From NCBI GenBank assembly GCA_958295975.1, contig OY282446.1:969289-1033288 (forward strand): a DNA stretch of 64,000 nt. Direction: 5' to 3'. This DNA is from Tepidiformaceae bacterium. Its GTDB lineage: Bacteria > Chloroflexota > Dehalococcoidia > Tepidiformales > Tepidiformaceae. How positions within the stretch are numbered: the first letter of the stretch is position 1; each line of letters opens with the position of its first letter. Position numbers and translations under genes: made by a program. Below are positions 19,722 to 54,211 of the stretch, piece after piece. The notes beneath the pieces were generated by a model that was not told the origin of the DNA, ran no database searches, and saw only the letters and a program-made list of their open reading frames with translations.

Positions 19722-20660
19722 ATGCCATCGACGATCTGTAGCGGGAGCGGGGCCGCGCGCGGCGTCGTGCACTACGCCGACGGCGTCACGGTGGCGCGTG
19801 CGCTGGCGGACGAATCGGTCGATCTCGTCTACCTCGATCCGCCCTTCAACACGGGCAGGCGGCAGCGTCGCGAGCGGCTGCGTACGACGCGCGCGACGGT
19901 CGGCGCGGGCGACCGCACGGGCTTCGGCGGCAGGCGCTACGAGACCATGCGCCTCGGCGTGCGCTCCTTCGACGACGCCTTCGACGACTACCTGGCCTTC
20001 CTCGAACCGTTCCTCACGGAGGCGCGGCGGCTGCTGAAGCCGAGCGGCTCCCTCTACCTGCACCTCGACTACCGCGAGGTCCACTACGCGAAACTGCTGC
20101 TGGACGGCGTGTTCGGGCGCGACTGCTTCCTCAACGAGATCGTGTGGGCCTACGACTACGGCGGGCGTCCGCGCGACCGCTGGCCCGCCAAGCACGACAC
20201 CATCCTCTTCTACGCGAAGGAGCCCGGTCGGCACCTCTTCAACGCGGACGAGGTCGAGCGCATCCCCTACATGGCCCCCGGGCTGGCGGGGCCGGAGAAG
20301 GCGGCGCGCGGCAAGCTGCCCACCGATACCTGGTGGCACACCATCGTCAGCCCCACCGGCAAGGAGAAGCTGGGCTACCCGACGCAGAAGCCGCTGGGCG
20401 TGCTGCGGCGCATCGTGGCCGCATCCTCGCCGCGCGGCGGGCTGGTGGCGGATTTCGTGGCGGGCAGCGGCACGACGGGCGCGGCGGCGCTGGCGCTGGG
20501 CCGCCGCTTCGTGCTGGCCGACCGTTTGGAGGATGCGTTCACGGTGATGCGGACGCGCTTCGCGGGGGAGCCGGGCGTGGAGTTCCGCACCGCCGATGGC
20601 TCGGTCACGCGGGCGGATGATGCATTTGGGGATGGCGGGGCGCAGACCTCGTTGCTATGA
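19722..20660 (+). CDS. Beta-class DNA methyltransferase (N6-adenine or N4-cytosine)
   Basis: 312 aa. Catalytic motif IV (LVYLDPPFNTG) comes before the SAM-binding motif I (DFVAGSGTTGAAAL), the order of the beta group (RsrI/HinfI-like). The region between (~90-230) is the target-recognition part, with HDTILFYAK and YPTQKPLGVLRRI typical for the class. Probable partner of the nuclease gene that follows after 15 bases. The recognition site cannot be read from the sequence. Confidence 0.92.
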   Translation: MPSTICSGSGAARGVVHYADGVTVARALADESVDLVYLDPPFNTGRRQRRERLRTTRATVGAGDRTGFGGRRYETMRLGVRSFDDAFDDYLAFLEPFLTEARRLLKPSGSLYLHLDYREVHYAKLLLDGVFGRDCFLNEIVWAYDYGGRPRDRWPAKHDTILFYAKEPGRHLFNADEVERIPYMAPGLAGPEKAARGKLPTDTWWHTIVSPTGKEKLGYPTQKPLGVLRRIVAASSPRGGLVADFVAGSGTTGAAALALGRRFVLADRLEDAFTVMRTRFAGEPGVEFRTADGSVTRADDAFGDGGAQTSLL

Positions 20661-27111: not shown

Positions 27112-27262
27112 GGTTCTCTTCCTCTGGCCTGCCTCGTCGGTGCTGAGCGGCCATTCTCAGCAGACGCGCCCGAAGGCGCGTTTCGGTCAGACTGAGGCCG
27201 CTCACCCCAGAGCGCCGCGCCGACCGCTGACTCCGCCGATCCGGCGGAAGGGGCGGCGGTGC

Positions 27263-40070: not shown

Positions 40071-40688
40071 TCACCGCCAACGCTGCGGACGGTTCAGCAC
40101 GCTGCCATCCGTCCCGAGAAGCTGCTCTGGCAGTTGGCTGTGGCGAAGGACCCCATGTCCAATGCCAAACGCCACGTCCGCCGTGCGGCGGAGATCCCAG
40201 GATTGCCGGTTCGGCGGGAAGGCGGCGACGACGCGCTTGCCGTGGCGCTCGCGCACGGCCCGCACGGGGCCAACCAGATCGCTGTCCGCGGAGATGAGGA
40301 TGGCCGTGTCGAAGGCGTCGTCCGCGGCGTCGCCGAGCATCTCGACGGCGATGTTCACGTCGGTCATCTTCTCTTCGTAGGTCCGCCACACGGCCTCGCA
40401 TTCGGGACAGCGGCGCTCCTTCGACATGAAGTAGCCCTCGTGGATGGTCAGGTCGGGGAGCGTGGCCAGCGCCTCCAGGTACGCGTTCTGGCGGCGCGGC
40501 TTGTCGGGATCGTTGGGCTGGGCGGAGACGCGCGCGGTGAAGTAGCGCACGCGCGCCAGCGTCTGGTCGCCCACCAGCAGGCGCTCGGCCAGACGGCGCA
40601 CGTCGAGCCAGTAGTAGCGCCGCCAGCCCTTGTTCCTGAGGCCGTAGTAGAGGTTGAGGCCGTCGACGTAGACGGCGGCGCGGGTCAT
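40071..40688 (-). CDS. NYN/PIN-like domain protein
   Basis: 205 aa NYN-domain protein (LabA/DUF88-like), a PIN-fold metal-dependent RNase group. Acidic motif 1 is in VYVDGLNLYYGL, motif 2 around KMTDVNIAVEML and motif 3 in ILISADSDLVGPV. The insert ERRCPECEAVW carries a CxxC pair. The ATG overlaps the stop of the CDP-alcohol transferase. A second NYN protein is encoded at 41561. Confidence 0.82.
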   Translation of the reverse strand: MTRAAVYVDGLNLYYGLRNKGWRRYYWLDVRRLAERLLVGDQTLARVRYFTARVSAQPNDPDKPRRQNAYLEALATLPDLTIHEGYFMSKERRCPECEAVWRTYEEKMTDVNIAVEMLGDAADDAFDTAILISADSDLVGPVRAVRERHGKRVVAAFPPNRQSWDLRRTADVAFGIGHGVLRHSQLPEQLLGTDGSVLNRPQRWR

Positions 40689-41326
40689 GCGGGGGCGTCC
40701 GCGCGGCGGGCCGCGAGCAGGCGCACGGCCACGGTGAGGGCGCTCGCCGCGGCCAGCGCCGCCAGCGTCCAGTAGCACTGCCCCACGGCGGTGCCGACGG
40801 CGGCGGCGAGCAGGCGCACGTCGCGGCCGGCCAGCCAGGAGAGCGCGAGGGGCCCGCGCGCGGCGGCCATGGCGGGCCAGAGGCCGGAGGCCTCGGCGCG
40901 GGCGCGGCTGTAGCTGACGGTGAGCGCGCCCGCCAGCGCCAGCGCGCCCACGGCCTCGGGCTGGGGGAAGGACTCGAAGCGGGCGGCGTGGATGGTCATG
41001 CCGCCGAGGATGGCCGCGTCGGCGTAGCGGTCGGCGATGGCGTCGAGCGCGGCCCCGAAGCGGGAGACGCGGCCCGTGCGGCGCGCGAGGTCGCCGTCCA
41101 CGCCGTCGGCCACGCTGGCCAGCTGGATGGCCACGCCGCCCGCGACGGACCAGCCCAGGGCCACGAGGGCGGCGGCGGCAAAGGAGACGGCGAGGGCGGC
41201 GAGGGTGAGGGCGGCGGGGCTGGCGTGCGTGCGCGCGAGGGCGGCGGCGAGGGGGCGGCTGAGGCGCCGGTTGAGGTGGCGGGAGACGGGGCCCTCGGCG
41301 GGCGCGCGCGCGGGTCCGGCGCTCAC
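40685..41326 (-). CDS. CDP-alcohol phosphatidyltransferase family protein
   Basis: 213 aa integral membrane enzyme that transfers a phospho-alcohol from CDP-lipid or CDP-alcohol. The signature D-x2-D-G-x2-A-R-x8-G-x3-D-x3-D is complete from DGVDGDLARR to FGAALDAIADRYAD. Six membrane helices are likely. Substrate cannot be decided; may make a phosphatidylinositol-like or glycerol head group. The GTG start overlaps the stop of a 27-residue membrane peptide. Confidence 0.85.
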   Translation of the reverse strand: MSAGPARAPAEGPVSRHLNRRLSRPLAAALARTHASPAALTLAALAVSFAAAALVALGWSVAGGVAIQLASVADGVDGDLARRTGRVSRFGAALDAIADRYADAAILGGMTIHAARFESFPQPEAVGALALAGALTVSYSRARAEASGLWPAMAAARGPLALSWLAGRDVRLLAAAVGTAVGQCYWTLAALAAASALTVAVRLLAARRADAPA

Positions 41327-41560: not shown

Positions 41561-42085
41561 CTATTCTCCAGCCTGCTCCTCACGCCAGAGGTTCTCAAAG
41601 TACTCCGGAGTCAAGTTAATCACTTCATCTGCGACATCCCTGAGCACCCGCGCCGATCCGGGGCCGAACAGCGCAATCTCGACGTTGGGCCCAAGATCCT
41701 TGACCGCCTGCACCGCATCGGCGAAGTCGGCATCCCCGCTCACGAGGACTGCCGTATCGTAGTGGTCACGGAAGGCGTGCATGAGCATATCGGTCGCCAG
41801 GCTGACATCGACGCCCTTCTGGCGGGGGCGGGAATCCGGGGAGTACACCAGGTTGCCAAGCTTGACTTCGAGTTTCGGCACGCGCCGAAGGTAATCGAAG
41901 AACCGCTGCTGGATCGCGTAGCGATCAGGATCGTGGGACTGGCCCAGCCGTGCGTTGTAATAGTACGTCCGCCGAAGGTTCCTGCCATCGCTAAGCGCCA
42001 GACACAGCTTGCGATAGTCAAGGTCCGTGCGCCCGCACACCTTCTCCAGCGAGTGGTACAGGTTGGCCCCGTCAATGAAGACCAT
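41561..42085 (-). CDS. NYN/PIN-like domain protein (LabA-like)
   Basis: 174 aa. Acidic residues in VFIDGANLYHSL, KGVDVSLATDMLMH and LVSGDADFADAVQAV are all in place for a metal-dependent nuclease. No extra Zn insert, unlike the 40071 protein. ATG 42085 gives the usual length; ATG 42148, 63 bases upstream, is in frame and possible. A little lower in GC than its neighbours. Role unknown; relatives cleave or bind RNA. Confidence 0.82.
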   Translation of the reverse strand: MVFIDGANLYHSLEKVCGRTDLDYRKLCLALSDGRNLRRTYYYNARLGQSHDPDRYAIQQRFFDYLRRVPKLEVKLGNLVYSPDSRPRQKGVDVSLATDMLMHAFRDHYDTAVLVSGDADFADAVQAVKDLGPNVEIALFGPGSARVLRDVADEVINLTPEYFENLWREEQAGE

Positions 42086-42215
42086 CACGCGCGTGAAGTC
42101 ACGCCTGGAGAGCCCGCCAAGGCTCGCGATAGCCGGATACGCCCCCATCCCCAAGAAGGTACCCAGCGGGATCGAGACTGACAAGGCCGCGCGGCCTCCT
42201 AGCGCGCCCGTCGCG

Positions 42216-42221
42216 TAGGCT
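42216..42221 (+). promoter_or_regulatory. TANNNT -10 box of P-type ATPase gene
   Basis: TAGGCT, six bases (GGGGGC) and the GTG start at 42228; leaderless geometry. Confidence 0.5.
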
Positions 42222-42227
42222 GGGGGC

Positions 42228-44666
42228 GTGACGAGCGCGACGGCGGCGGCGCCAGGCCCCGGGCTGGACGAGGCCGAGGCCGCGCGCCGCCTGACCGCGG
42301 GCGAGGGCAACGCCGACGCCTCCCGCCAGCGCCGCGACCGCGACGTGGTCCGCGCCAACGCCCTCACCTTCTTCAACGTCACCCTCTTCCTCATGATCGC
42401 GGCCCTGCTGGCGGCGGGCGAGATCCGCGACGGGCTGTTCGTGGGCGCGGTCGTCTTCGCCAACGTGGCCGTCTCCACCTGGCAGGAGCTGCGGGCCGTG
42501 CGCACGCTGCGCTCGCTGGTGGCGCTCACGGCCCCGCGGGCGCGCGTGGTGCGCGGCGGCGGCGAGCGCGAGATTCCCGCCGAAGCGGTCGTGCGCGGCG
42601 ACCTCGTGCACCTGCGCCCGGGGGACCAGGTGGTGGCCGACGGCCCCGTGGCGGGGCGCGCCGCCGAGCTGGACGAATCGCTGCTCACGGGCGAATCGGC
42701 CTCCGTGCGCAAGGCCCCGGGCGACCGCCTGCTCTCCGGCTCCTTCTGCGTGGCGGGCGACCTGTACTACACGGCGGAGCGCGTGGGCGCGGAGGCCTAC
42801 GCGCTGCGGCTGACGGCGGACGCGCGCCAGCTGGTGAGCCGCGCCACGCCCCTGCAGCTGCAGCTGAAGCGCATCCTGCGCGTGCTGGTGGGGGCCACGA
42901 TCGTGCTCACCGCGGCCCTGCTCATCTCCTACAGCGTGAACGACCGCGGCCTCACGGAGTCGCTGCGCGCGACCACGGCCACGGTGACCACGGTGGTGCC
43001 CGTGGGCCTGCTGCTGGGCATGACCGTGGCCTTCGCCGTGGGGGCCGTGCGCGTCTCCCGCGCGGGGGCCATCGTGCAGGACATCCAGGCCGTGGAGGCG
43101 CTCAACTACGCCGACGTGGTGTGCCTCGACAAGACGGGCACGCTCACGGCCAACCGGCTCACGGTGCGCGACGTCCGCTGGGCGGAGGGCGTGGGCGGCG
43201 CGGAGGCGATGGGCTGGCTGGGGGCCTTCGCCGCCGCCGTCGCGGGCGAGAGCAAGACCGCCGACGCCCTCGCCGAGCGCTTCGCCCCCGCCGCCCGCGA
43301 GGCCCGCCCCGACGGCAACGTGCCCTTCAGCTCGGCGCGGCGCTGGAGCGCCATGCGGCTGCGGGCGGGCGGCGAGCGGCGCGTGTTCGCGCTGGGCGCG
43401 CCGGAGACGCTGGCGCGCCCCGACGGCCCCGGCGCGGAGCTGCTGGAGGCCGCGCGCGCCGCCAGCGAGGCTGGCCTGCGGAGCGTCATCTTCGCCGAGA
43501 CCGCGGCCCTGCCCGAGCGCGACGCGCCCATCGGGGAGGCGCGCCCGCTGGCCCTCATCACGCTCGCCGACGTGCTCCGCCCGGAGGTGAAGGAGGCCTT
43601 CACGCTCATGGACGAGCTGGGCATCGAGCCCAAGATCATCAGCGGCGACGACCCGCGCACGGTGGCCGCCCTGCTGCGCCAGCTGGGCATCGAGACGCGC
43701 GGCGGCGTCATCGCCGGGGCGGAGCTGGAGACGCTGACGGAGGACGATTTCGCCGAGGCGGCGGCCACGCGCAGCGTCTTCGGGCGCATCTCGCCGGACC
43801 AGAAGCGGGCCATCGTGGAGGCCCTGCGCGAGCGCGGGCGCTTCGTGGCCATGGTGGGCGACGGGGCCAACGACGTGCACGCCCTGCGCGCCGCCGACAT
43901 CGCCGTGGCCATGGAATCGGGCGCCTCCACGGCGCGCGGCGTGGCCGGCATCGTGCTGCTGCGCGATTCCTTCGCCGCGCTCATCCGCGGCGCGCGCGAG
44001 GCCACCTTCGTGCTGGGCAACTCCGCCCGCCTGAGCAAGCTCTTCCTGGCCAAGAGCATCTACGCCTACCTGCTCATCTTCGCCGCCGACCTGCTGGGGC
44101 TGGATTTCCCCTTCCTGCCCCGCCACGGCTCGCTCACGGCCATGCTGGCGCTGGGCATCCCCGCCATCTTCATCAGCATCAGCATCCCCCCGCCGGGCGC
44201 GGGCAAGGACTACCTGCACAGCGTGCTGCGCTTCGCCCTGCCCGCGGGCATAGCCCTGGGGGTCGTGGCCATGATCGTGCAGTTCGGCGTGGAATGGCTC
44301 TTCGGGCAGGGCGTGGAGGAATCGCGCACGCTGGTGTCGCTGGTCATCGGCTTCACCAGCATCGGCTTCGTGGTCGAGGTGCTGGGCTTCGAGGGGGCGT
44401 CCTTCCGCAACCTCACGCGGCCGGTGCTGACGCTGCTGCTGGCGGCGGCGCTGGGGGCGGCGCTGGTGCTGACGGTGTACACGCCCTGGCTGCGCGATTT
44501 CTTCAATTTCTCGGCGATCAACGCGGGCGAGTGGGCGGTGGTGGGGGTGGGCACGGCGGCGGCGCTGGCGGGGCAGTACTACGTGAGCCGTCACTGGCGC
44601 GGGATCATCGCCTTCCTGTTGGCGACGCCGGGGGAGAAGGAGCGGCTGCGGGGCCGCCCGGCCTGA
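42228..44666 (+). CDS. CtpE-like P-type cation ATPase
   Basis: 812 aa. The A domain has LLTGESASV, the phosphorylation site Asp301 is in VVCLDKTGTLT, the N domain has the usual KxxG-type region replaced by FALGAPE, and the hinge is MVGDGANDVHALRAADIAVAM. Ten membrane helices fit the pattern. No N-terminal heavy-metal domain. The overall pattern resembles mycobacterial CtpE, for which a calcium role has been described; ion specificity here is unproven. Leaderless promoter. Confidence 0.88.
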   Translation: MTSATAAAPGPGLDEAEAARRLTAGEGNADASRQRRDRDVVRANALTFFNVTLFLMIAALLAAGEIRDGLFVGAVVFANVAVSTWQELRAVRTLRSLVALTAPRARVVRGGGEREIPAEAVVRGDLVHLRPGDQVVADGPVAGRAAELDESLLTGESASVRKAPGDRLLSGSFCVAGDLYYTAERVGAEAYALRLTADARQLVSRATPLQLQLKRILRVLVGATIVLTAALLISYSVNDRGLTESLRATTATVTTVVPVGLLLGMTVAFAVGAVRVSRAGAIVQDIQAVEALNYADVVCLDKTGTLTANRLTVRDVRWAEGVGGAEAMGWLGAFAAAVAGESKTADALAERFAPAAREARPDGNVPFSSARRWSAMRLRAGGERRVFALGAPETLARPDGPGAELLEAARAASEAGLRSVIFAETAALPERDAPIGEARPLALITLADVLRPEVKEAFTLMDELGIEPKIISGDDPRTVAALLRQLGIETRGGVIAGAELETLTEDDFAEAAATRSVFGRISPDQKRAIVEALRERGRFVAMVGDGANDVHALRAADIAVAMESGASTARGVAGIVLLRDSFAALIRGAREATFVLGNSARLSKLFLAKSIYAYLLIFAADLLGLDFPFLPRHGSLTAMLALGIPAIFISISIPPPGAGKDYLHSVLRFALPAGIALGVVAMIVQFGVEWLFGQGVEESRTLVSLVIGFTSIGFVVEVLGFEGASFRNLTRPVLTLLLAAALGAALVLTVYTPWLRDFFNFSAINAGEWAVVGVGTAAALAGQYYVSRHWRGIIAFLLATPGEKERLRGRPA

Positions 44667-44736
44667 CGGGGGCCATCGGGTTACGTTGACACGCTCCGGG
44701 GCGACCGGGAGAATCCGGCGCTGCCCGGAGGGAGCA

Positions 44737-46746
44737 ATGACGCAGCCGCGCTGGCGCTTCGCGCGCATGACGCCCGCCGAGATCAACCAGGATCCGGTGC
44801 AGGGCGAGTTCTTCAGCCGCGAGGCCGATCTGCCCGGACGCCTCGTGCGCGAGGCCATCCAGAATTCGCTCGACGCGCGCCGCGGCGCCGACCCCGTGCG
44901 CGTGCGCTTCGTCTTCAGCGGCGAGCGCGACGTGCTGCCCCCGCATCGGGCCGCGCGCTACCTCGACGGCCTCGAGGAGCATGTCGAGGCGGTGGTGGCG
45001 GCGGGCGGCATGACGGCGGGCGCGTCCGGCGAGGATGACGACGAGGAAGAGAGCGCCGCCTACGACGCGCTCGCCTGCTTCAACAAGCCGATGGACTACC
45101 TCGTCGTCGAGGACTTCGGCACGAAGGGGCTCAAGGGCAACATCCGCGCCAACTCCGAGCTGGAAGAGAACAACCACTTCTGGGGCTTCTTCCGCAGCAT
45201 CGGCATCTCCCCGAAGGGCGAGAACGACGCGGGCTCGTGGGGGCTGGGCAAGTGGGTGTTCCCCGACGCCTCCATCATCAACGCCTACCTGGGCATGACG
45301 CAGCGCGAGGACGAAGAGAACTGGCTGCTGATGGGCATGGCGCTGCTCAAGACGCACCACCTGGGCGAGGGAGAGGAACGGGAGAAGTACCGCTACTACG
45401 GCTCCTTCGCCGCCCACAGCGACGCCACCGACGAGCAGTGGTTCCCGCTGCCCGTCAATTCCGACGACGACGCGGACGACTTCATTCAGGAGACGCTGCG
45501 CGATTTCAACCTGGAGCGGCTGGAGAATCCCGGCCTCTCCGTGATCGTGCCCTACCCGAAGACCGAGCTGAACCCCACGGCCATCGCGCGGGCGGTGCTG
45601 ACGCAATACTTCCTGCCCGTCGTGCGGGGCGATCTCATGGTCGAGATCGTCCACCCGGACGAGGAGACGCGAACCATCGACGCCGCCAGCATTGAGGAAG
45701 AGGTCGGGCGCATCGCGAAGTCGGAGCGCGACGACGAGTCGCCGGAGTCGCTGCTCGGGGCCATCGAGCTCGCGCGCTGGGCGCTTGAGCGGAACGAGCG
45801 CGCACACACCGAGCTTCCGGCGCGGAACCTGCCGGACGCGCTCGGCGGGCACGCCGACCTCGACGCCATCCGCGAGCGCTACGAGCGCGGGGACCGGCTC
45901 GCATTCCGGCTGACGACGAACGCGCGAGCGCGGAGCGACGCCCGCCCCACCGAATCCGGCTTCCACCTCTACCTCGAACGCGACGACCGGCTGGACAAGG
46001 GGCACGACTACTTCATGCGCGGGCCGCTTCGCATTCCGCACATGGACCACATCGAACGGCAGAAGGCGCGGGCGCTCGTGCTCGTCGATGGCGACTCCCC
46101 GCTGGGCCACCTGCTGCGCGACGCCGAGGGCCCGGCGCACGAGTCGTGGGATCCGCACGCGCAGCGTCTCAAGGACAACTGGAGCGGGGGCTATCAGCGC
46201 GTGCAGGACGTGCGGCGCGCCGCCGTGCACCTGCTGCAACGCCTCGTCGAGCGGCCCCGGGAGCGGCAGATGGACGCGCTCGCCGACCTCTTCCCCGGCG
46301 ATCCCTCGCGCATCGGGAAGGGAACGAGCGGCAAGACCGGAACCAGGACGCCCCCGACCCGCACCGCCACAGGCGCGCCCAGCCCGCTGCAGGTCGATTC
46401 GCCCGCGGGCGCATTCGTGGTGCGGAAGCCGACGGGCGGCGAGGAGACGCTCGCGGGTACGGTCTGGAACGTGCGCTTCGCCTACGACACCGTGCGCGGC
46501 AACCCCTTCACCGTGTTCGAGGCGGGCGTGCGGCAGGGCTCGCCCGATTTCTCGCTCGACGAGGGGCTGGAGCTGGACGGGACGGCGGGCTGCGAGTTCG
46601 AGGTGGTCGGCCCGAACGCGCTGCGCTTCGAGGTGACGGACGAGACCTTCCGGCTGCGCGTCTCCGGCTTCGACGAACGCGACGTGAAGGTGGAGGTGCG
46701 CGAGGAGAAGGCGGCGGATGAGCGTGAGGAAGAGGACGCCGCGTGA
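44737..46746 (+). CDS. GHKL (Hsp90/MutL-type) ATPase, first gene of unknown operon
   Basis: 669 aa. GHKL ATP-binding motifs are clear: the N-box REAIQNSLDA (Glu39, Asn43), the G1 motif VVEDFGTKG (Asp126, Gly128, Gly131) and a lid motif GSWGLGKWVF (~167-176). Between them is an acidic insert (GEDDDEEES). The rest (~180-669) has no domain I know; a Thr/Pro-rich linker near ~540 precedes a beta-rich C-terminal part ending in an acidic tail. ATG with GGAGGGAGC. The stop overlaps the next gene. Phage-defence systems with GHKL proteins exist (for example mzaABCDE), but their other parts are not seen here. Confidence 0.7.
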   Translation: MTQPRWRFARMTPAEINQDPVQGEFFSREADLPGRLVREAIQNSLDARRGADPVRVRFVFSGERDVLPPHRAARYLDGLEEHVEAVVAAGGMTAGASGEDDDEEESAAYDALACFNKPMDYLVVEDFGTKGLKGNIRANSELEENNHFWGFFRSIGISPKGENDAGSWGLGKWVFPDASIINAYLGMTQREDEENWLLMGMALLKTHHLGEGEEREKYRYYGSFAAHSDATDEQWFPLPVNSDDDADDFIQETLRDFNLERLENPGLSVIVPYPKTELNPTAIARAVLTQYFLPVVRGDLMVEIVHPDEETRTIDAASIEEEVGRIAKSERDDESPESLLGAIELARWALERNERAHTELPARNLPDALGGHADLDAIRERYERGDRLAFRLTTNARARSDARPTESGFHLYLERDDRLDKGHDYFMRGPLRIPHMDHIERQKARALVLVDGDSPLGHLLRDAEGPAHESWDPHAQRLKDNWSGGYQRVQDVRRAAVHLLQRLVERPRERQMDALADLFPGDPSRIGKGTSGKTGTRTPPTRTATGAPSPLQVDSPAGAFVVRKPTGGEETLAGTVWNVRFAYDTVRGNPFTVFEAGVRQGSPDFSLDEGLELDGTAGCEFEVVGPNALRFEVTDETFRLRVSGFDERDVKVEVREEKAADEREEEDAA

Positions 46747-47504
46747 TCAGCCGCATCAACCGCACCGGGCGCAAGCGCATCCAGCGGCGCGACGTCGACC
46801 TCAGCCTGCGCGTGGCGGAGCGGGGCGAGGCGCCCATCTTCGACCTCACGCTGCGGCTGGAGGACTACGGCTTCCCGCCGGAGGCGCGCGTGCGCGTCGA
46901 GGCCGCGCGCGGCAACGCCTCCCAGCGCTGGGACTACGGCACGGTCTGGCGCCGCACGCCGCCCCCCGACGAGGAGCGCCGCCTGACGGAGGTTCCCGGG
47001 GCCGCGAGCTTCCGCGTGTTCGTGGTGGCGGCGGACGGCTCCGGCAAGCTGCTCGGCCACGCGCCCAACCTGCGGCCGGTGCTGCCGCTTGATTCGCGGC
47101 TGCCGCTGGAGGAGAGCGACGATCTCGGCGAGGAGGTCTGGCGCGTCGAGTTCGACGGCGACAACGGCGACCCCGTGCTGAAGGTCAACTCCGGCATCCC
47201 GGGCATCAGCGAGTCCGTGCGCCGCGATCCTGCCTTCCGCTCGCTCGTCATGCCGGAGGTGTTCCGCACGATCCTCACGCGCATGGTCCTGATCGACCGC
47301 GCCAACCCGGAGGACGATGAGCCGTGGGGGCACTGGTTCGGGATCGCGCACGCCTACCTGCCCGACCGCGAGCCGCCGTACCTGGGGGGGCCGCACGACG
47401 CCGGCCGGGACGATGAGGCCCGCGAGTGGATCGACGCGGTCGTGGGGGCGATGGCGAAGAAGCCGCTCGACGCGGCCAACTCCTACCGGGAAGCGCTGGC
47501 GTGA
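46743..47504 (+). CDS. Unknown protein B of the GHKL operon
   Basis: 253 aa, GTG overlapping the ATPase stop. The N-terminal ~120 residues are beta-rich (LSLRVAERGEAPIFDLTLRL), followed by a fold with WRVEFDGDNGDPVLKVNSG, then a mainly helical C-terminal half with FRTILTRMVLIDR and DEPWGHWFGIAHAY. No catalytic motif recognised. Strict coupling to both neighbours implies one complex. Family unknown to me. Confidence 0.65.
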   Translation: MISRINRTGRKRIQRRDVDLSLRVAERGEAPIFDLTLRLEDYGFPPEARVRVEAARGNASQRWDYGTVWRRTPPPDEERRLTEVPGAASFRVFVVAADGSGKLLGHAPNLRPVLPLDSRLPLEESDDLGEEVWRVEFDGDNGDPVLKVNSGIPGISESVRRDPAFRSLVMPEVFRTILTRMVLIDRANPEDDEPWGHWFGIAHAYLPDREPPYLGGPHDAGRDDEAREWIDAVVGAMAKKPLDAANSYREALA

Positions 47505-48580
47505 GCGAGGCGATCGAGCGGCTGCGCGAGGCGCGCGAGGCGCTCATGCGACCCGGCGCGCCCCTGCGCGTCAACCTGCGCGACTACGTGCCGGAGGGTT
47601 CGGCGGCGTGGCGGGCGTTCGTGCGCGTCAGGAGCGAGTCCGCGCGCTCCACGCTCGTGCCCGGCTACAGCGTGCGGCGCGCGACGATCGTCGGCTGGCT
47701 CGACGACGTGATCGCCCAGTTGGAGGCGGAGCGCGACGCCGGGGAGACGCCCGCGGATGAGCCCGTGGAAGCGCCTTCGCCGCGCGATCTGCCCCGCACG
47801 GGCGAACGCTCGTCGCGGATGGAGCCTTCCGCGGGATCGCCCTCCCCGAGGGGGACGCCGCTGCGACGGCTGACGGCGGCGGGCATCGCGGAGGCGCAGG
47901 CGTTCCTCGCGCGCCTGCGCGAGCACCCCGACGCGGACCGCACGCCGCCCGACGACCTGCTCTTCGGCGACCGCTACAGCCGCCCGTTCGACGCGGGCGC
48001 GGGCATCACGGTGGAGCCGCGCGCGTTCGGGACGCGGCGCGAGGCGGGGGCGTATCTGTCGCCGCTGCTCGAGTCGGTGCGGCACCGCGTCGCGGACGAC
48101 GCAGGCGTGTGGTCGTGGCTTGGCATGTTCTACTTCACGGATACCGTCCGCGTGAGGGATGGGCGCGCGCAGTTGCACACCGACGAGGCAAGCCTTTTTC
48201 TGGGAGAGAGGGCTGCTCAACGTCGCTATCGGCACTACCTTTGGATGGCTTGGCGGATTTACGAACAGCATGGCGAGAAAGTGTCCTTTCTCCTCGACCA
48301 GCCTCTGACCGCGAGGGGGGACTTGCTGGAAGCTGTCGGTGGATATGCCCGCATCTTCAACTCCGCAGGGGTCGTTCCACTGGCCCTGCGCCTCTATACC
48401 CACAGCGGCAAACTGAAGCGCGGCTTTAGTGCGAAGAAGGGGCAGCCTGGCAATATTCGCCGCCTGCCTGCTGTGCTGGAGCAGCTGGCGTTGACCTACG
48501 ACGTGTATGGCATGGCGCCGGACGCGCTGCTGGATGTGCTGCCCGACGACTTCCGCCGCTGGGACGCGAGGACGGCGTGA
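47501..48580 (+). CDS. Unknown protein C of the GHKL operon (paralogue of D)
   Basis: 359 aa, GTG overlapping the stop of B. The N-terminus (AIERLREAREALM ... VNLRDYVPEGSAAWRAFVR) and the C-terminal ~240 residues are shared with the next protein: SPLLESVRHRVADDAGVWSW, RRYRHYLWMAWRIYEQHGEK and LTYDVYGMAPDALLDVLPDDF. The centre includes a Pro/Ser/Arg linker. It might belong to a DUF6339-like group, a guess from memory. The 3' third (~48130-48510) has far lower GC3 than the 5' part and than gene D, suggesting recombination. Confidence 0.65.
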   Translation: MSEAIERLREAREALMRPGAPLRVNLRDYVPEGSAAWRAFVRVRSESARSTLVPGYSVRRATIVGWLDDVIAQLEAERDAGETPADEPVEAPSPRDLPRTGERSSRMEPSAGSPSPRGTPLRRLTAAGIAEAQAFLARLREHPDADRTPPDDLLFGDRYSRPFDAGAGITVEPRAFGTRREAGAYLSPLLESVRHRVADDAGVWSWLGMFYFTDTVRVRDGRAQLHTDEASLFLGERAAQRRYRHYLWMAWRIYEQHGEKVSFLLDQPLTARGDLLEAVGGYARIFNSAGVVPLALRLYTHSGKLKRGFSAKKGQPGNIRRLPAVLEQLALTYDVYGMAPDALLDVLPDDFRRWDARTA

Positions 48581-49995
48581 GCGAGGCGGTCTGGCGGCTG
48601 CGCGAGGCGCTCGACGCGCTCACGCGGCCCGACGCGCCCGCGACGGTCAACCTGCGCGACTACGTGCCGGAGGGATCGGCGGCGTGGCGGGCGTTCGTGC
48701 GTGAATGGCCAGCCGATGCGGGTTCTGGTCCGCCGGAGGGCTCGGCGGCATGGCGGGCGTTCGTGCGGGCGTGGCGCGTGCCCGGCGACGACGTGGAGCG
48801 CGCGACGATGGTCGGCTGGGTCGAGGCGGTGATCGCGCGGCTGGAGGCGGAGACCGATGCCCGGGAGAAGCCCGCGGGTGAATCCGCCAGGGAGAGCGAA
48901 GCGCCTTCGCCGCGCGATCTGCCCCGCACGGGGGAGCGCTCGTCGCGGATGGAAGGGGCCGTGTTCAGCCTCGAGACGGACGATGTCGCGCGGACGCTGG
49001 CCGAGCGCTCCGTGGCGGACGCGGACGCGGGGCCAGCGGCGGACTGGCCCGTCTCCGCGCGGGTTCCCGCGCAACAGATGGACGACTGGTACTACGGGCC
49101 GGAGTACGACGAGGAGGCGCGGCAGGAGCGCGCCAGCCTCTCGGCGGCGCAGTGGGAGGAGCGGTTGCGCTGGCAGGCGGAGCACGGCGGCGATCCCGCG
49201 CGGGACACGCCGACGCCGTCGGCGCGCGGGCGGGCGGGGACTCCGCTGCGGCGGCTGACGGCGGAGGGCATCGTGGAGGCGCGGGCGTTCCTGATGCGCC
49301 TGCGCGAAGAGCCCGACGCGGACCGCGAGCCGCCGCGCGCGCTGCTGTTCGGCGACCGGCGCTACAGCCGCCCCTACAGCGAGGAAGTGCGCGTCGAGCG
49401 GCGGGGCTTCCGCACGCGGCGCGAGGCGGGGGAGTATCTGTCGCCGTTGCTCGCGCCCGTGCGCCACCACATCACGGATGACGCGGGCGTGTGGTCGTGG
49501 CTCGGCATGTTCTACTTCCCCGAGATCGTGCGCGTGAAGGATGGCCGGGTGCTGCTCCATGCCGATACGACGTCGCTCTTCCTGGGCGAACGGTCGGCGC
49601 AGCGGCGCTACCGCCACTACCTCTGGTCGGCCTGGCGGCTCTACGAGCAGCACGGCGAGAGCGTGGGCTACGTCCTCGACCAGCCGGTGACGGACTCCGG
49701 CGACATCGCCAAGGCGGTGCTCGACTACCCCCGCGTGTTCACCTCGGCGGGCGTGATCCAGCTCATCCTCCAGCTGTATACGGACGGCGAGCGGACGAAG
49801 CGCGGGTTCAGCGTGCGGGCGCGGCAGGGCGTTTCCACCAGGCCCCGGCCCGGCACCGTGTGGCACCTGATCGAGCGCGCCTTGCCGCAGCTGGAGCTGA
49901 CCTACGACGTGTACGGCATGGCGCCGGACGCGCTGCTGAAGGTGCTGCCGGACGATTTCCGCGCGTGGGAGCGCGCGGACGCGATGGGGGCGTAG
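48577..49995 (+). CDS. Unknown protein D of the GHKL operon (paralogue of C)
   Basis: 472 aa, GTG overlapping the stop of C. Same plan as C but with a longer middle (~130-225, charged) and an internal repeat: PEGSAAWRAFVREWP is followed closely by PEGSAAWRAFVRAWR. The C-terminal domain contains YLSPLLAPVRHHITDDAG, RYRHYLWSAWRLYEQHGES and VYGMAPDALLKVLPDDF. All codons have the local GC bias. Two related proteins in one operon suggest a heteromeric partner pair for the ATPase; inference. Confidence 0.65.
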   Translation: MSEAVWRLREALDALTRPDAPATVNLRDYVPEGSAAWRAFVREWPADAGSGPPEGSAAWRAFVRAWRVPGDDVERATMVGWVEAVIARLEAETDAREKPAGESARESEAPSPRDLPRTGERSSRMEGAVFSLETDDVARTLAERSVADADAGPAADWPVSARVPAQQMDDWYYGPEYDEEARQERASLSAAQWEERLRWQAEHGGDPARDTPTPSARGRAGTPLRRLTAEGIVEARAFLMRLREEPDADREPPRALLFGDRRYSRPYSEEVRVERRGFRTRREAGEYLSPLLAPVRHHITDDAGVWSWLGMFYFPEIVRVKDGRVLLHADTTSLFLGERSAQRRYRHYLWSAWRLYEQHGESVGYVLDQPVTDSGDIAKAVLDYPRVFTSAGVIQLILQLYTDGERTKRGFSVRARQGVSTRPRPGTVWHLIERALPQLELTYDVYGMAPDALLKVLPDDFRAWERADAMGA

Positions 49996-50000
49996 CGGCC

Positions 50001-50900
50001 CTACCAGCCGCGGGCGGCGAGGGCCTCGCCCTCGGGCAGGCTGGCGACGGACTGGCCGCGCATGGCCGGGCCCAGGCCGCGGCTGACGCGCGCCAGCAGC
50101 TCCGCGTCCCCGTAGTGCGTGACGGACTCGACGATGGCGCTGGCCACGGCGGGGGGGTTCTCGGCCTTGAAGATGCCGGAGCCGACGAACACGCCGTCGG
50201 CGCCGAGGCGCATCATGAGGGCGGCGTCGGCGGGGGTGGCCACGCCCCCGGCGGCGAAGTTGACGACGGGCAGGCGGCCCTCGGCGCGCACGCGCTCGAC
50301 CAGTTCGAGGGGGGCGCGCAGGTCCCTGGCGGCGGCGGGGAGCTCGTCGGGGGAGAGGGAGCAGAGGCGGCGGATTTCGCCCTGCACGGCGCGCATGTGG
50401 CGCACGGCCTCGACGATGTCGCCGGTGCCGGCCTCGCCCTTGGTGCGGATCATGGCGGCGCCCTCGGCGATGCGGCGCAGGGCCTCGCCGAGGTCGCGGC
50501 AGCCGCAGACGAAGGGCACGGTGAAGGCGCGCTTGTCGATGTGGTGGGCCTCGTCGGCGGGGGTGAGCACCTCGGACTCGTCGATGTAGTCGACGCCGAG
50601 GGCCTGCAGGATGTCGGCCTCGACGAAGTGGCCGATGCGGGCCTTGGCCATGACGGGGATGGAGACGGCCTCGGTGATGCGGACGATGATTTCGGGGTCG
50701 CTCATGCGGGCCACGCCGCCGTCGCGGCGGATGTCGGCGGGCACGCGCTCGAGGGCCATGACGGCGCAGGCCCCGGCCTCCTCGGCGATGCGGGCGTGTT
50801 CGGGGGAGACGACGTCCATGATGACGCCGCCCTTGAGCATCTGCGCGAGGCCGGTCTTCACCGTCCAGGTGCCGCGTTCGGTCGCTCCGTTCTCGCTCAT
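50001..50900 (-). CDS. pdxS: Pyridoxal 5'-phosphate synthase subunit PdxS
   Basis: 299 aa (beta/alpha)8 enzyme that makes PLP from ribose 5-phosphate, glyceraldehyde 3-phosphate and ammonia. Signature blocks: [53 protein letters not shown] and [14 protein letters not shown]. Catalytic Lys residues are present. The amidotransferase partner pdxT is not adjacent. The ATG follows GGAGGAG; TAAGCT at about 50927 may be its -10. Confidence 0.96.
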
Positions 50901-52203: not shown

Positions 52204-52983
52204 ATGAGCGCCACGTCGAGCATTGAGTGGACGCAGGCGACCTGGAACCCGGTGACGGGTTGCACGAAGGTCAGCCCCGGCTGCGCCCACTGCTACGCGG
52301 AGACGTTCGCCAACCGCTTCCGTGGCGTGCCCGGCCATCCCTACGAGCGGGGCTTCGAGCTCCAGCTGCGTCCCGAGCGGCTGGAGTTGCCGCTGGACTG
52401 GAAGAAGCCGCGCATGATCTTCGTGAACAGCATGAGCGACCTCTTCCACGAGGGCGTGGACGACGATTTCATCGCGCGCGCGTTCGCGACGATGGAGCGC
52501 GCGCACTGGCACACCTTCCAGGTGCTGACGAAGCGCCCCGAACGGGCGCTGGCGCTGGCGGGCGGGCTGCCCTGGCCGGACAACGTGTGGCTGGGCGTGT
52601 CCGTGGAGAACCGCCGCTTCCTGCACCGGCTGGACGCGCTGCGCGGGATTCCCGCCGCGCTGCGCTTCGCCTCCTGCGAGCCGCTGCTGGGGCCGCTGGC
52701 CGGGATCGACCTGACGGGCATCGGCTGGGTCATCTGCGGGGGCGAGTCGGGGCCGCGGGCGCGGCGCATGGAGCCGGAGTGGGCGCGCGCGCTGCGGGGT
52801 GCCTGCGAGGCTGCGTCGGTGCCGTTCTTCTTCAAGCAGTGGGGGGCGCACGACGCGGATGGGCGTCGCGTGGGCAAGGGGCGCGCGGGCCGCGAGTTCG
52901 ACGGCCAGCGCTGGGACGGGATGCCGGGGGCGATTCAGAACGCGGGGAACGTGACCCGCGTATCCGTACCCGTGCCCCAGTAG
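52204..52983 (+). CDS. DUF5131 phage Gp37/Gp68-like three-Cys-motif protein
   Basis: 259 aa. The N-terminal TWNPVTGCTKVSPGCAHCYAE holds the C-x6-C-x2-C three-Cys motif that gave the family its name; it is shortened here to GCTKVSPGCAHC. KPRMIFVNSMSDLFHE, WLGVSVENRRF, LRFASCEPLLGPL and GGESGPRARRM are also family hallmarks. The Cys arrangement hints at an iron-sulfur or radical-SAM-like fold. Relatives occur in phages and mobile islands. It converges on, and overlaps, the gene for its usual partner TcmP. Confidence 0.88.
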   Translation: MSATSSIEWTQATWNPVTGCTKVSPGCAHCYAETFANRFRGVPGHPYERGFELQLRPERLELPLDWKKPRMIFVNSMSDLFHEGVDDDFIARAFATMERAHWHTFQVLTKRPERALALAGGLPWPDNVWLGVSVENRRFLHRLDALRGIPAALRFASCEPLLGPLAGIDLTGIGWVICGGESGPRARRMEPEWARALRGACEAASVPFFFKQWGAHDADGRRVGKGRAGREFDGQRWDGMPGAIQNAGNVTRVSVPVPQ

Positions 52984-54050
52984 GTCTTCTTCATCTTTTT
53001 TTCAGGAGGGCGCTCGACCATCACCAACCCCTCCCTCTCAGCATCGCGCAGCACTTTCTTCCCGTGCGTCTCGCGGAACGCGGTCTCGATCAAGACAAAG
53101 TTGTCAATCTCACCGATGGGAACATCCGCACGTCCAGCAAAGTGACGCAGCATCAGGCTGCGCAACTGGGCGTAGTTCGGCTCGACTCCAAACAGCGTGG
53201 CCTGTCCCCGACTCGGCGCGGTGAAGTCCGAGAAGGTGACGCCGCCTGCCTGATCGACTTTCCACATGGCATCCTTCATGACTCGCAGCCCCTCCGGGCT
53301 GTGGGTGGCGAAGGCGAGGAAGTACTCCGTCCGGTTCCTCGCATCCCTCATCTCGAACAGGCGGACATATTTCATGCCGATGCCCTCGAGCTGACGAGCG
53401 TAGAGGTCGCTGAGGAACTTCTTCTTGTCCTGAGCAGCAAGCCCCGCCGCATCCCTCCACTTCCGTGTGCCGAAGAGATCGTCGAGGGGCGACTCGAACG
53501 AGGGGTGCTCAAGGAACCGGCTGATCGGTTCGTACATGAGGGAAACGAGCAGCTCGGTCTTGGGGAAGTCGGCCAAGCGACGCAGCAGGTCGAGCGGCAG
53601 GCCCTTCACGCCGAAGGGATCGACCATGACGAAGGACGGCCTCGACGGCCTCAGGCCAAAGTTCCTAACCTTTTCAAGACCGCCGAACACTTCGTCGATA
53701 TGCTCCTCAAAAGTTCCCTGTCGAACCATCACCTCGGCGTTCGGCGGATGCTGGCGACTATCGACCGTGGTCTTGAGCATCTCGAAGTGCGCCTGGTCCT
53801 CTTCGATAAACAGGAACTTGAACCGGCAGCCCTTCATATTCGGCAAATGCTTGTGCTGGGCGAGAACGTCGAGCGCGATGATGGGCGAGCCGGGCTCGCC
53901 GTCGGCGTACGTGCCCGGCCCGGCGAAGCCATCGACGAAGACGATGAGGCCTCGCGTGCTCGCCAGCTTCGGGTAGTACGCCTGGAGGTAGCGGCGCAGG
54001 ATCTCGTGCTTGGCGACGGTGTGCGGTTGGATCTTCCAGGTAGCAGTCAT
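52935..54050 (-). CDS. Three-Cys-motif partner protein TcmP
   Basis: 371 aa. IVFVDGFAGPGTY and FVMVDPFGVKGLPL are the characteristic motifs of TcmP, a methyltransferase-like protein almost always encoded beside a three-Cys-motif protein. A C-terminal helical part may be a winged helix. The coding sequence is clearly lower in GC than the surroundings, a sign of transfer. The 3' end overlaps the 3' end of the DUF5131 gene by 49 bases on the opposite strand; in most genomes the pair is reported in the same direction. Confidence 0.85.
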   Translation of the reverse strand: MTATWKIQPHTVAKHEILRRYLQAYYPKLASTRGLIVFVDGFAGPGTYADGEPGSPIIALDVLAQHKHLPNMKGCRFKFLFIEEDQAHFEMLKTTVDSRQHPPNAEVMVRQGTFEEHIDEVFGGLEKVRNFGLRPSRPSFVMVDPFGVKGLPLDLLRRLADFPKTELLVSLMYEPISRFLEHPSFESPLDDLFGTRKWRDAAGLAAQDKKKFLSDLYARQLEGIGMKYVRLFEMRDARNRTEYFLAFATHSPEGLRVMKDAMWKVDQAGGVTFSDFTAPSRGQATLFGVEPNYAQLRSLMLRHFAGRADVPIGEIDNFVLIETAFRETHGKKVLRDAEREGLVMVERPPEKKMKKTYWGTGTDTRVTFPAF

Positions 54051-54211
54051 GGGCGAACGGTTGTACCACGGCGGTCCCGAATCGGCAAATCCGCATCCCC
54101 GCGCTTGCCGCCCCTCCCCCTCCGGTGTAGCGTTGGCGCGCACATCACCGGGCCCGCGGCAGTGAGGCCCGCGTGCGGGCGCGCGTCCGCACGCGAACGC
54201 AAAGCAGGGGC

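Follow-up and report, generated by a model that had tools for sequence, protein, structure and literature searches.

A mobile three-gene module with a paraMORC2-like GHKL ATPase in a Tepidiformaceae genome: a candidate restriction-like defence system

Described relatives of the module

GHKL ATPases have been known from restriction operons since 2008, and the closest described relatives of the system reported here are the paraMORC2/MORC proteins (Iyer, Abhiman and Aravind 2008, PMC2292703). That paper defines paraMORC2, a group of restriction-associated ATPases, by an S5-fold domain that follows the GHKL domain and by an ExxxH that is strictly conserved towards the C-terminal end of the S5 fold. 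Our analysis concerns a window of 64,000 nucleotides (the whole stretch of DNA analysed, G000:C1:969289-1033288) from the genome of a Tepidiformaceae bacterium, a single contig of 2.40 Mb; in named collections, its close relatives belong to the Chloroflexota, some of them to the Dehalococcoidia. Within the window lies a run of four genes, A to D, of which A encodes a GHKL-type ATPase and A-B-C are the conserved unit. We assign a probability of roughly 0.6 to the reading that A-B-C(-D) was acquired horizontally and serves in defence as a restriction-like, ATP-dependent module in which a methyltransferase is optional. The family of A-B-C loci shares with the paraMORC2/MORC systems the GHKL motifs, the C-terminal ExxxH, a sporadic spread, and neighbourhoods with C5 methyltransferase and Vsr genes. 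Most of the published systems include superfamily II helicases and nucleases of the RE (restriction endonuclease) fold, whereas the window operon contains neither, and the constant partners of A are B and C, which the main text of that paper does not describe, though the uncharacterised domains X1-X3/Z2-Z3 of its Figure 2 might include them (PMC2292703).

Other described systems share single components with the module. The component held in common with PADLOC PDC-M33 is A itself, which is thus already covered by a list of phage-defence candidates: the model PDC-M33A (PDLC04582, 627 positions) matches A at 4.5e-18, mainly over the ATPase half, and also matches distant A proteins, down to 5e-25, but for B, C and D PADLOC offers no matching model. 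Searches of article text returned no paper on PDC-M33 or on a GHKL/Vsr/methyltransferase defence operon of the A-B-C kind. The mzaABCDE genes form a defence system of the MutL-Z1-AIPR type. An earlier note on this DNA had named them as an example; they do place a GHKL ATPase in a multi-gene defence operon, but the Z1, AIPR and restriction endonuclease partners, which the note itself had not seen here, are absent from A-D by Pfam, and paraMORC2-type ATPases accompanied by C5 methyltransferase and Vsr or glycosylase genes stand nearer. Type II-like restriction-modification comes with a cognate methyltransferase in the operon, which is missing at the window locus and present at 25 other loci.

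The GHKL-Shedu protein VcSduA (paraMORC3-like), in which an E-to-A change in the ATPase abolishes protection, resembles A as a GHKL ATPase coupled to defence, but there a nuclease domain is fused to the ATPase (PMC12137116), and Pfam finds neither DUF4263 nor another nuclease domain in A. The Response_reg_2/HEF_HK clusters (Bellieny-Rabelo 2021, PMC8011034) combine paraMORC-like ATPases with C5 methyltransferase and Vsr, as relatives of the module do. By eye, they are resembled by the Bacteroidota loci L066 and L089 and in part by L062 and L076: all four have further GHKL genes between Dcm (the C5 methyltransferase) and A-B-C, and L066 and L089 have receiver-like regulator genes there as well. 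Such regulator and extra GHKL genes are absent at the window locus, and A-B-C is not described in that paper.

The conserved unit and its insertion site

An A-profile scan of 84,980 species genomes yielded 80 loci, in which A, B and C were then sought by profile searches. At 74 of the 76 assessable loci (those not cut by a contig end), A, B and C are adjacent, on one strand and in one order, with A-B gaps mostly below 40 bp; in the two exceptions A is truncated (L081) or fused (L085), and a further locus, L033, has an additional C copy upstream. The hosts belong to 12 bacterial phyla, i.e. Chloroflexota, Acidobacteriota, Actinomycetota, Gemmatimonadota, Pseudomonadota, Thermodesulfobacteriota, Myxococcota, Nitrospinota, Nitrospirota, Planctomycetota, Bacteroidota and Verrucomicrobiota, and one archaeon belongs to the phylum Nitrososphaerota. 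Among 400 genomes of the window's own phylum, A occurs in 12; the C-family profile matches in ten, all of which possess A, and C without A was not seen. One 12.7-kb IMG/VR contig (L135) carries a complete A-B-C with 29% identity in A. A hallmark gene of phages could not be recognised on this contig, the C query gave no match in viral collections, and A was not found in phage records.

The conserved unit is A-B-C; D arose from a tandem duplication of C that is specific to this lineage. The two proteins, already taken for paralogues in the earlier note, share 66-68% identity over a core of about 240 residues and are sisters in the tree of the window clade (support 98/91); other duplications of C in this clade (L028; L032/L035) are separate events. 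The note had proposed a self-contained module of four genes: its expectation that the genes would be found together elsewhere is borne out strongly for A-B-C, but the tree rules out four genes as the unit. Its remaining structural claims agree with our results, namely an ATP-driven first protein with GHKL motifs, a GTGA overlap at every junction, and proteins B, C and D that have no recognised domain (no significant match in Pfam or NCBIfam, and none to any housekeeping family there).

The frames of A-D run without internal stops and have a third-position GC content of 0.86-0.96. At all three junctions (A/B, B/C and C/D) the overlapping letters are GTGA, and GTG opens each downstream gene. DNA of 70% GC yields long open reading frames by chance, and an antisense frame of 544 codons' worth of amino acids does overlap A; A-D are nevertheless genes, because their frames are kept as proteins across phyla. 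The single promoter match lies 22 bp ahead of A and within the inserted segment (1 found in the region scanned, 0.1 expected in shuffles).

Thirty-seven other genomes of the family, among them eight of the same genus, lack the module. In these congeners, the two genes on either side of it in the window (the P-type ATPase gene and pdxS) are convergent neighbours. Their stop codons lie 10-20 bp apart in three genomes (G030, G033, G029) and about 100 bp apart in a fourth (G028); by eye, the spot holds a HigB/HigA-like pair in G031 and G035 (L133, L134) and another two-gene toxin-antitoxin-like cassette in G032 and G034 (L131, L132). Since the spot is empty or otherwise filled in congeners, the 5.3-kb segment is a clean, recent insertion, and the place between the two genes exchanges small defence-type cassettes.

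Features of the module and its flanks (positions within the window)
Feature	Position	Strand	Description
Gene A	44737-46746	+	669 aa, ATG..TGA; GHKL-type ATPase, ExxxH (E464, H468), paraMORC2-like by motifs; PDC-M33A match
Gene B	46743-47504	+	253 aa, GTG..TGA; Ig-like beta-sandwich (~10-117) and C-terminal helices (model)
Gene C	47501-48580	+	359 aa, GTG..TGA; helical N-terminal domain (1-90), linker, ~240-aa core (model)
Gene D	48577-49995	+	472 aa, GTG..TAG; tandem paralogue of C, longer linker
Sigma-70-like promoter TTGACA-N17-GAGAAT	44686-44714	+	10/12 consensus matches; consensus match only
Inserted segment	44667-49995	+	between P-type ATPase stop codon and convergent pdxS stop codon
P-type ATPase gene	42228-44666	+	left flank of module
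pdxS	50001-50900	-	right flank of module, convergent

Some further features of the window were noticed by the way. Two NYN/PIN-like genes, recognised by eye from their VDGLNLY and IDGANLY starts, lie just upstream of the P-type ATPase gene (40071-40778 and 41561-42712, both on the minus strand). On the other side, at 52204-54143, a DUF5131-like gene (+) is convergent with a three-Cys-motif-partner-like (TcmP-like) gene (-), again by eye. A Type II hammerhead ribozyme (RF02276) is predicted at 27123-27188 (-), with 52.6 bits against a cut-off of 37 (E 5.8e-8).

Proteins A, B and C

Protein A possesses the ordered GHKL motifs ExxxN(S/A)xD, DxGxxG-type and GxxGxG(K), in the form of REAIQNSLDA, VEDFGTKGL and GSWGLGK. 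In an alignment of 79 relatives, E39, N43, D46, D126, G131, G166, G169 and G171 are invariant and K172 is kept in 78; position 128 varies (67 G, 11 N, 1 A). Equally invariant is an ExxxH (E464, H468), present in all 79 including the distant L004 and L025, as a motif match. A has no Pfam or NCBIfam match, and the generic GHKL models do not reach it. Alignment with hhalign to MutL/HATPase_c_3 covers the first motif region only (E 0.0017 and 0.0003 for one comparison, probability 15-38%), and a comparison of the A profile with a single HATPase_c_3 protein was unsuccessful. Motifs and neighbourhood together point to a GHKL ATPase of probable paraMORC2 type.

The model of B (mean predicted local distance difference test score, pLDDT, 92) shows a sandwich of the immunoglobulin (Ig)/FN3-like kind at residues ~10-117, followed by C-terminal helices. 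Its best VIA match is an Ig-like domain of a GH2 enzyme (Z 8.5), which is a common fold. The first ten residues are modelled at low confidence, and yet their N6-x-T8-x-R10 is near-invariant (70-71 of 71 relatives); this combination suggests that the N-terminal tail serves for docking.

The model of C (mean pLDDT 87, the core mostly above 90) is mostly helical, with a low-confidence linker after the N-terminal domain. This domain of about 90 residues is accessory: only part of the window clade has it, and in some relatives it sits at the opposite end of the protein. Conserved in the core are W204, W206, H245, G317, Q328 and D334. Within the scans made, neither B nor C has a match beyond chance in Pfam, NCBIfam, PADLOC, PHROGs or PDB sequences, and D has none in Pfam, NCBIfam or PADLOC; scans with the B and C families (75-78 members) gave chance-level matches of single members only (CheR_N 0.0012, Cren7 0.0078). 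Foldseek found no usable match for the fold of C (best E 2.8 against PDB and 0.66 against viral models), and a second look with VIA-align gave Z values up to 4.7, confined to the accessory N-terminal domain. The missing fold match does not amount to proof of a new fold, because C was modelled whole and not as the core alone.

Methyltransferase linkage and the proposed role of the module

What points to restriction is the company that A-B-C keeps in sister clades. A C5 methyltransferase gene lies beside the 25 loci mentioned above and Vsr beside 19 (identities confirmed by Pfam), often co-directional with A-B-C and tens of base pairs away. Compact operons take the form A-B-C-Dcm-Vsr (L060, L072, L079), A-B-C-Dcm-HhH-GPD glycosylase (L074, L088, L100) or Dcm-A-B-C (L101). 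The minimal Dcm-linked operons contain no other recognisable nuclease, and inspection of the minimal A-B-C-Dcm-Vsr relatives revealed no helicase. Elsewhere, the neighbours include type I restriction genes, GmrSD and further methyltransferases. Vsr and HhH-GPD glycosylases both repair the T:G mismatches that arise from deamination of 5-methylcytosine (5mC). Their exchange beside the same core suggests that they protect the host from its own methyltransferase and are not the restricting enzyme; Vsr is not favoured as the restriction nuclease, as it is either swapped for HhH-GPD or absent. As the methyltransferase is kept with A-B-C where no other nuclease can be recognised, elimination suggests that restriction activity resides most simply in A-B-C. 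Mapped onto the tree of A, the label 'Dcm or Vsr present' shows clustering (11 changes, compared with 22.5 in shuffles); it is absent from the 20 rows nearest the window and from two further large branches. According to this pattern, methyltransferase linkage was lost or gained several times.

The earlier note had guessed at defence or at DNA/protein remodelling. The context points to the former, in the shape of restriction, with DNA as the presumed substrate; an action on phages would be a further step. In such a mechanism, A would dimerise through its GHKL/S5-type ATPase and act as an ATP-gated clamp or as an engine that loops DNA, along the lines proposed for paraMORCs. B might be an adaptor, with its conserved N-terminal tail docking on a partner and its Ig-like domain forming the bridge between A and C, and C, together with its copy D, would recognise the target, perform the effector step, or both. 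In much of the family, the C5 methyltransferase of the same operon would mark self and A-B-C would restrict, with Vsr or the HhH-GPD glycosylase mending the T:G mismatches caused by 5mC deamination. The window clade could recognise foreign DNA without self-marking, recognise modified DNA, or rely on a methyltransferase elsewhere in the genome.

Several observations weigh against a restriction-like role. Our scans detect no nuclease signature in any of the three core proteins, and at loci that have a Vsr-like protein, this could be the nuclease. No methyltransferase is linked to the window operon, and most methyltransferase-free relatives lie among ordinary genes, not in defence islands. The window genome has six C5-type methyltransferase matches at five places and 17 of the N6_N4 type, and self-marking in the window clade may take place in trans. 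In two genomes with relatives of the window module (G106, G350), the assemblies contain no C5 methyltransferase; as both possess N6/N4 enzymes, dependence in trans is conceivable for them, too. A consistently linked methyltransferase of another type was rejected for the window clade, where only L028 and L036 have N6/N4 genes in the vicinity of A. Independently of these points, the window genome is very rich in methyltransferases for 2.4 Mb, with one N6_N4 gene at 19818-20534 of the window. At G000:C1:1309617-1311037, a C5 methyltransferase directly adjoins a HATPase_c_3 GHKL gene, in a second, unrelated restriction cluster of the paraMORC/MORC type.

The alternative that survives best, though we consider it unlikely, is an anti-phage module that cuts no DNA: A would sense a phage protein or DNA structure, C and D would be toxin-like effectors leading to abortive infection, and the methyltransferase of sister clades would be an independent neighbour or an anti-toxin-like control. 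This fits a protein C that matches no nuclease-like family or fold and has undergone repeated duplication in the window clade, as happens with sensors or effectors, a window locus with no methyltransferase, and an insertion spot that holds toxin-antitoxin-like pairs in congeners; but the operon-like coupling to C5 methyltransferases in many lineages reads most easily as restriction-modification. A role in DNA maintenance or repair (of mismatches or 5mC damage), with a MutL-like A and with Vsr or the glycosylase as lesion-specific nuclease, is less probable still. The GHKL/MutL-like motifs of A and the nature of Vsr and HhH-GPD as enzymes of 5mC-deamination repair would agree with it, and recruitment of such ATPases to repair is discussed by Iyer et al. 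(PMC2292703), but the distribution is patchy and mobile, and most close relatives, the window included, have no Vsr, glycosylase or methyltransferase nearby. Finally, a non-defence mobile ATPase module (e.g. for protein remodelling or stress response) captured by restriction operons is the least probable: many methyltransferase-free relatives are indeed flanked by ordinary metabolic genes, but the association with methyltransferases and restriction genes arose repeatedly and independently, and the module sits in a spot of module exchange.

Beyond the restriction-like reading itself, we regard only as tentative the broader proposal that A-B-C is a widespread, previously undescribed ATP-dependent DNA-targeting machine, with C as a new effector fold (nuclease or target-recognition) and an optional methyltransferase. 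On this view, some lineages would have a restriction-modification system policed by 5mC and the associated repair enzymes, and others, the window among them, a self-contained system able to distinguish foreign DNA with no methyltransferase linked to it. Compared with the literature, the obligate partners B and C, the three-gene unit, the methyltransferase-free branches and the exchange of Vsr for a glycosylase are apparently new. If the reading holds, the B and C families, unnamed in Pfam, NCBIfam and PADLOC, would be core defence parts in an archaeon as well as in 12 bacterial phyla, and the fold of C would be a new one for an effector or for recognition. Given the exchange of Vsr for HhH-GPD, the real nuclease can be sought in A-B-C by direct tests, and the methyltransferase-linked and methyltransferase-free branches would constitute a natural experiment on the distinction of self from non-self after methyltransferase loss. 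MORC ATPases also matter as the source of the eukaryotic chromatin MORCs, whose mechanism is still debated.

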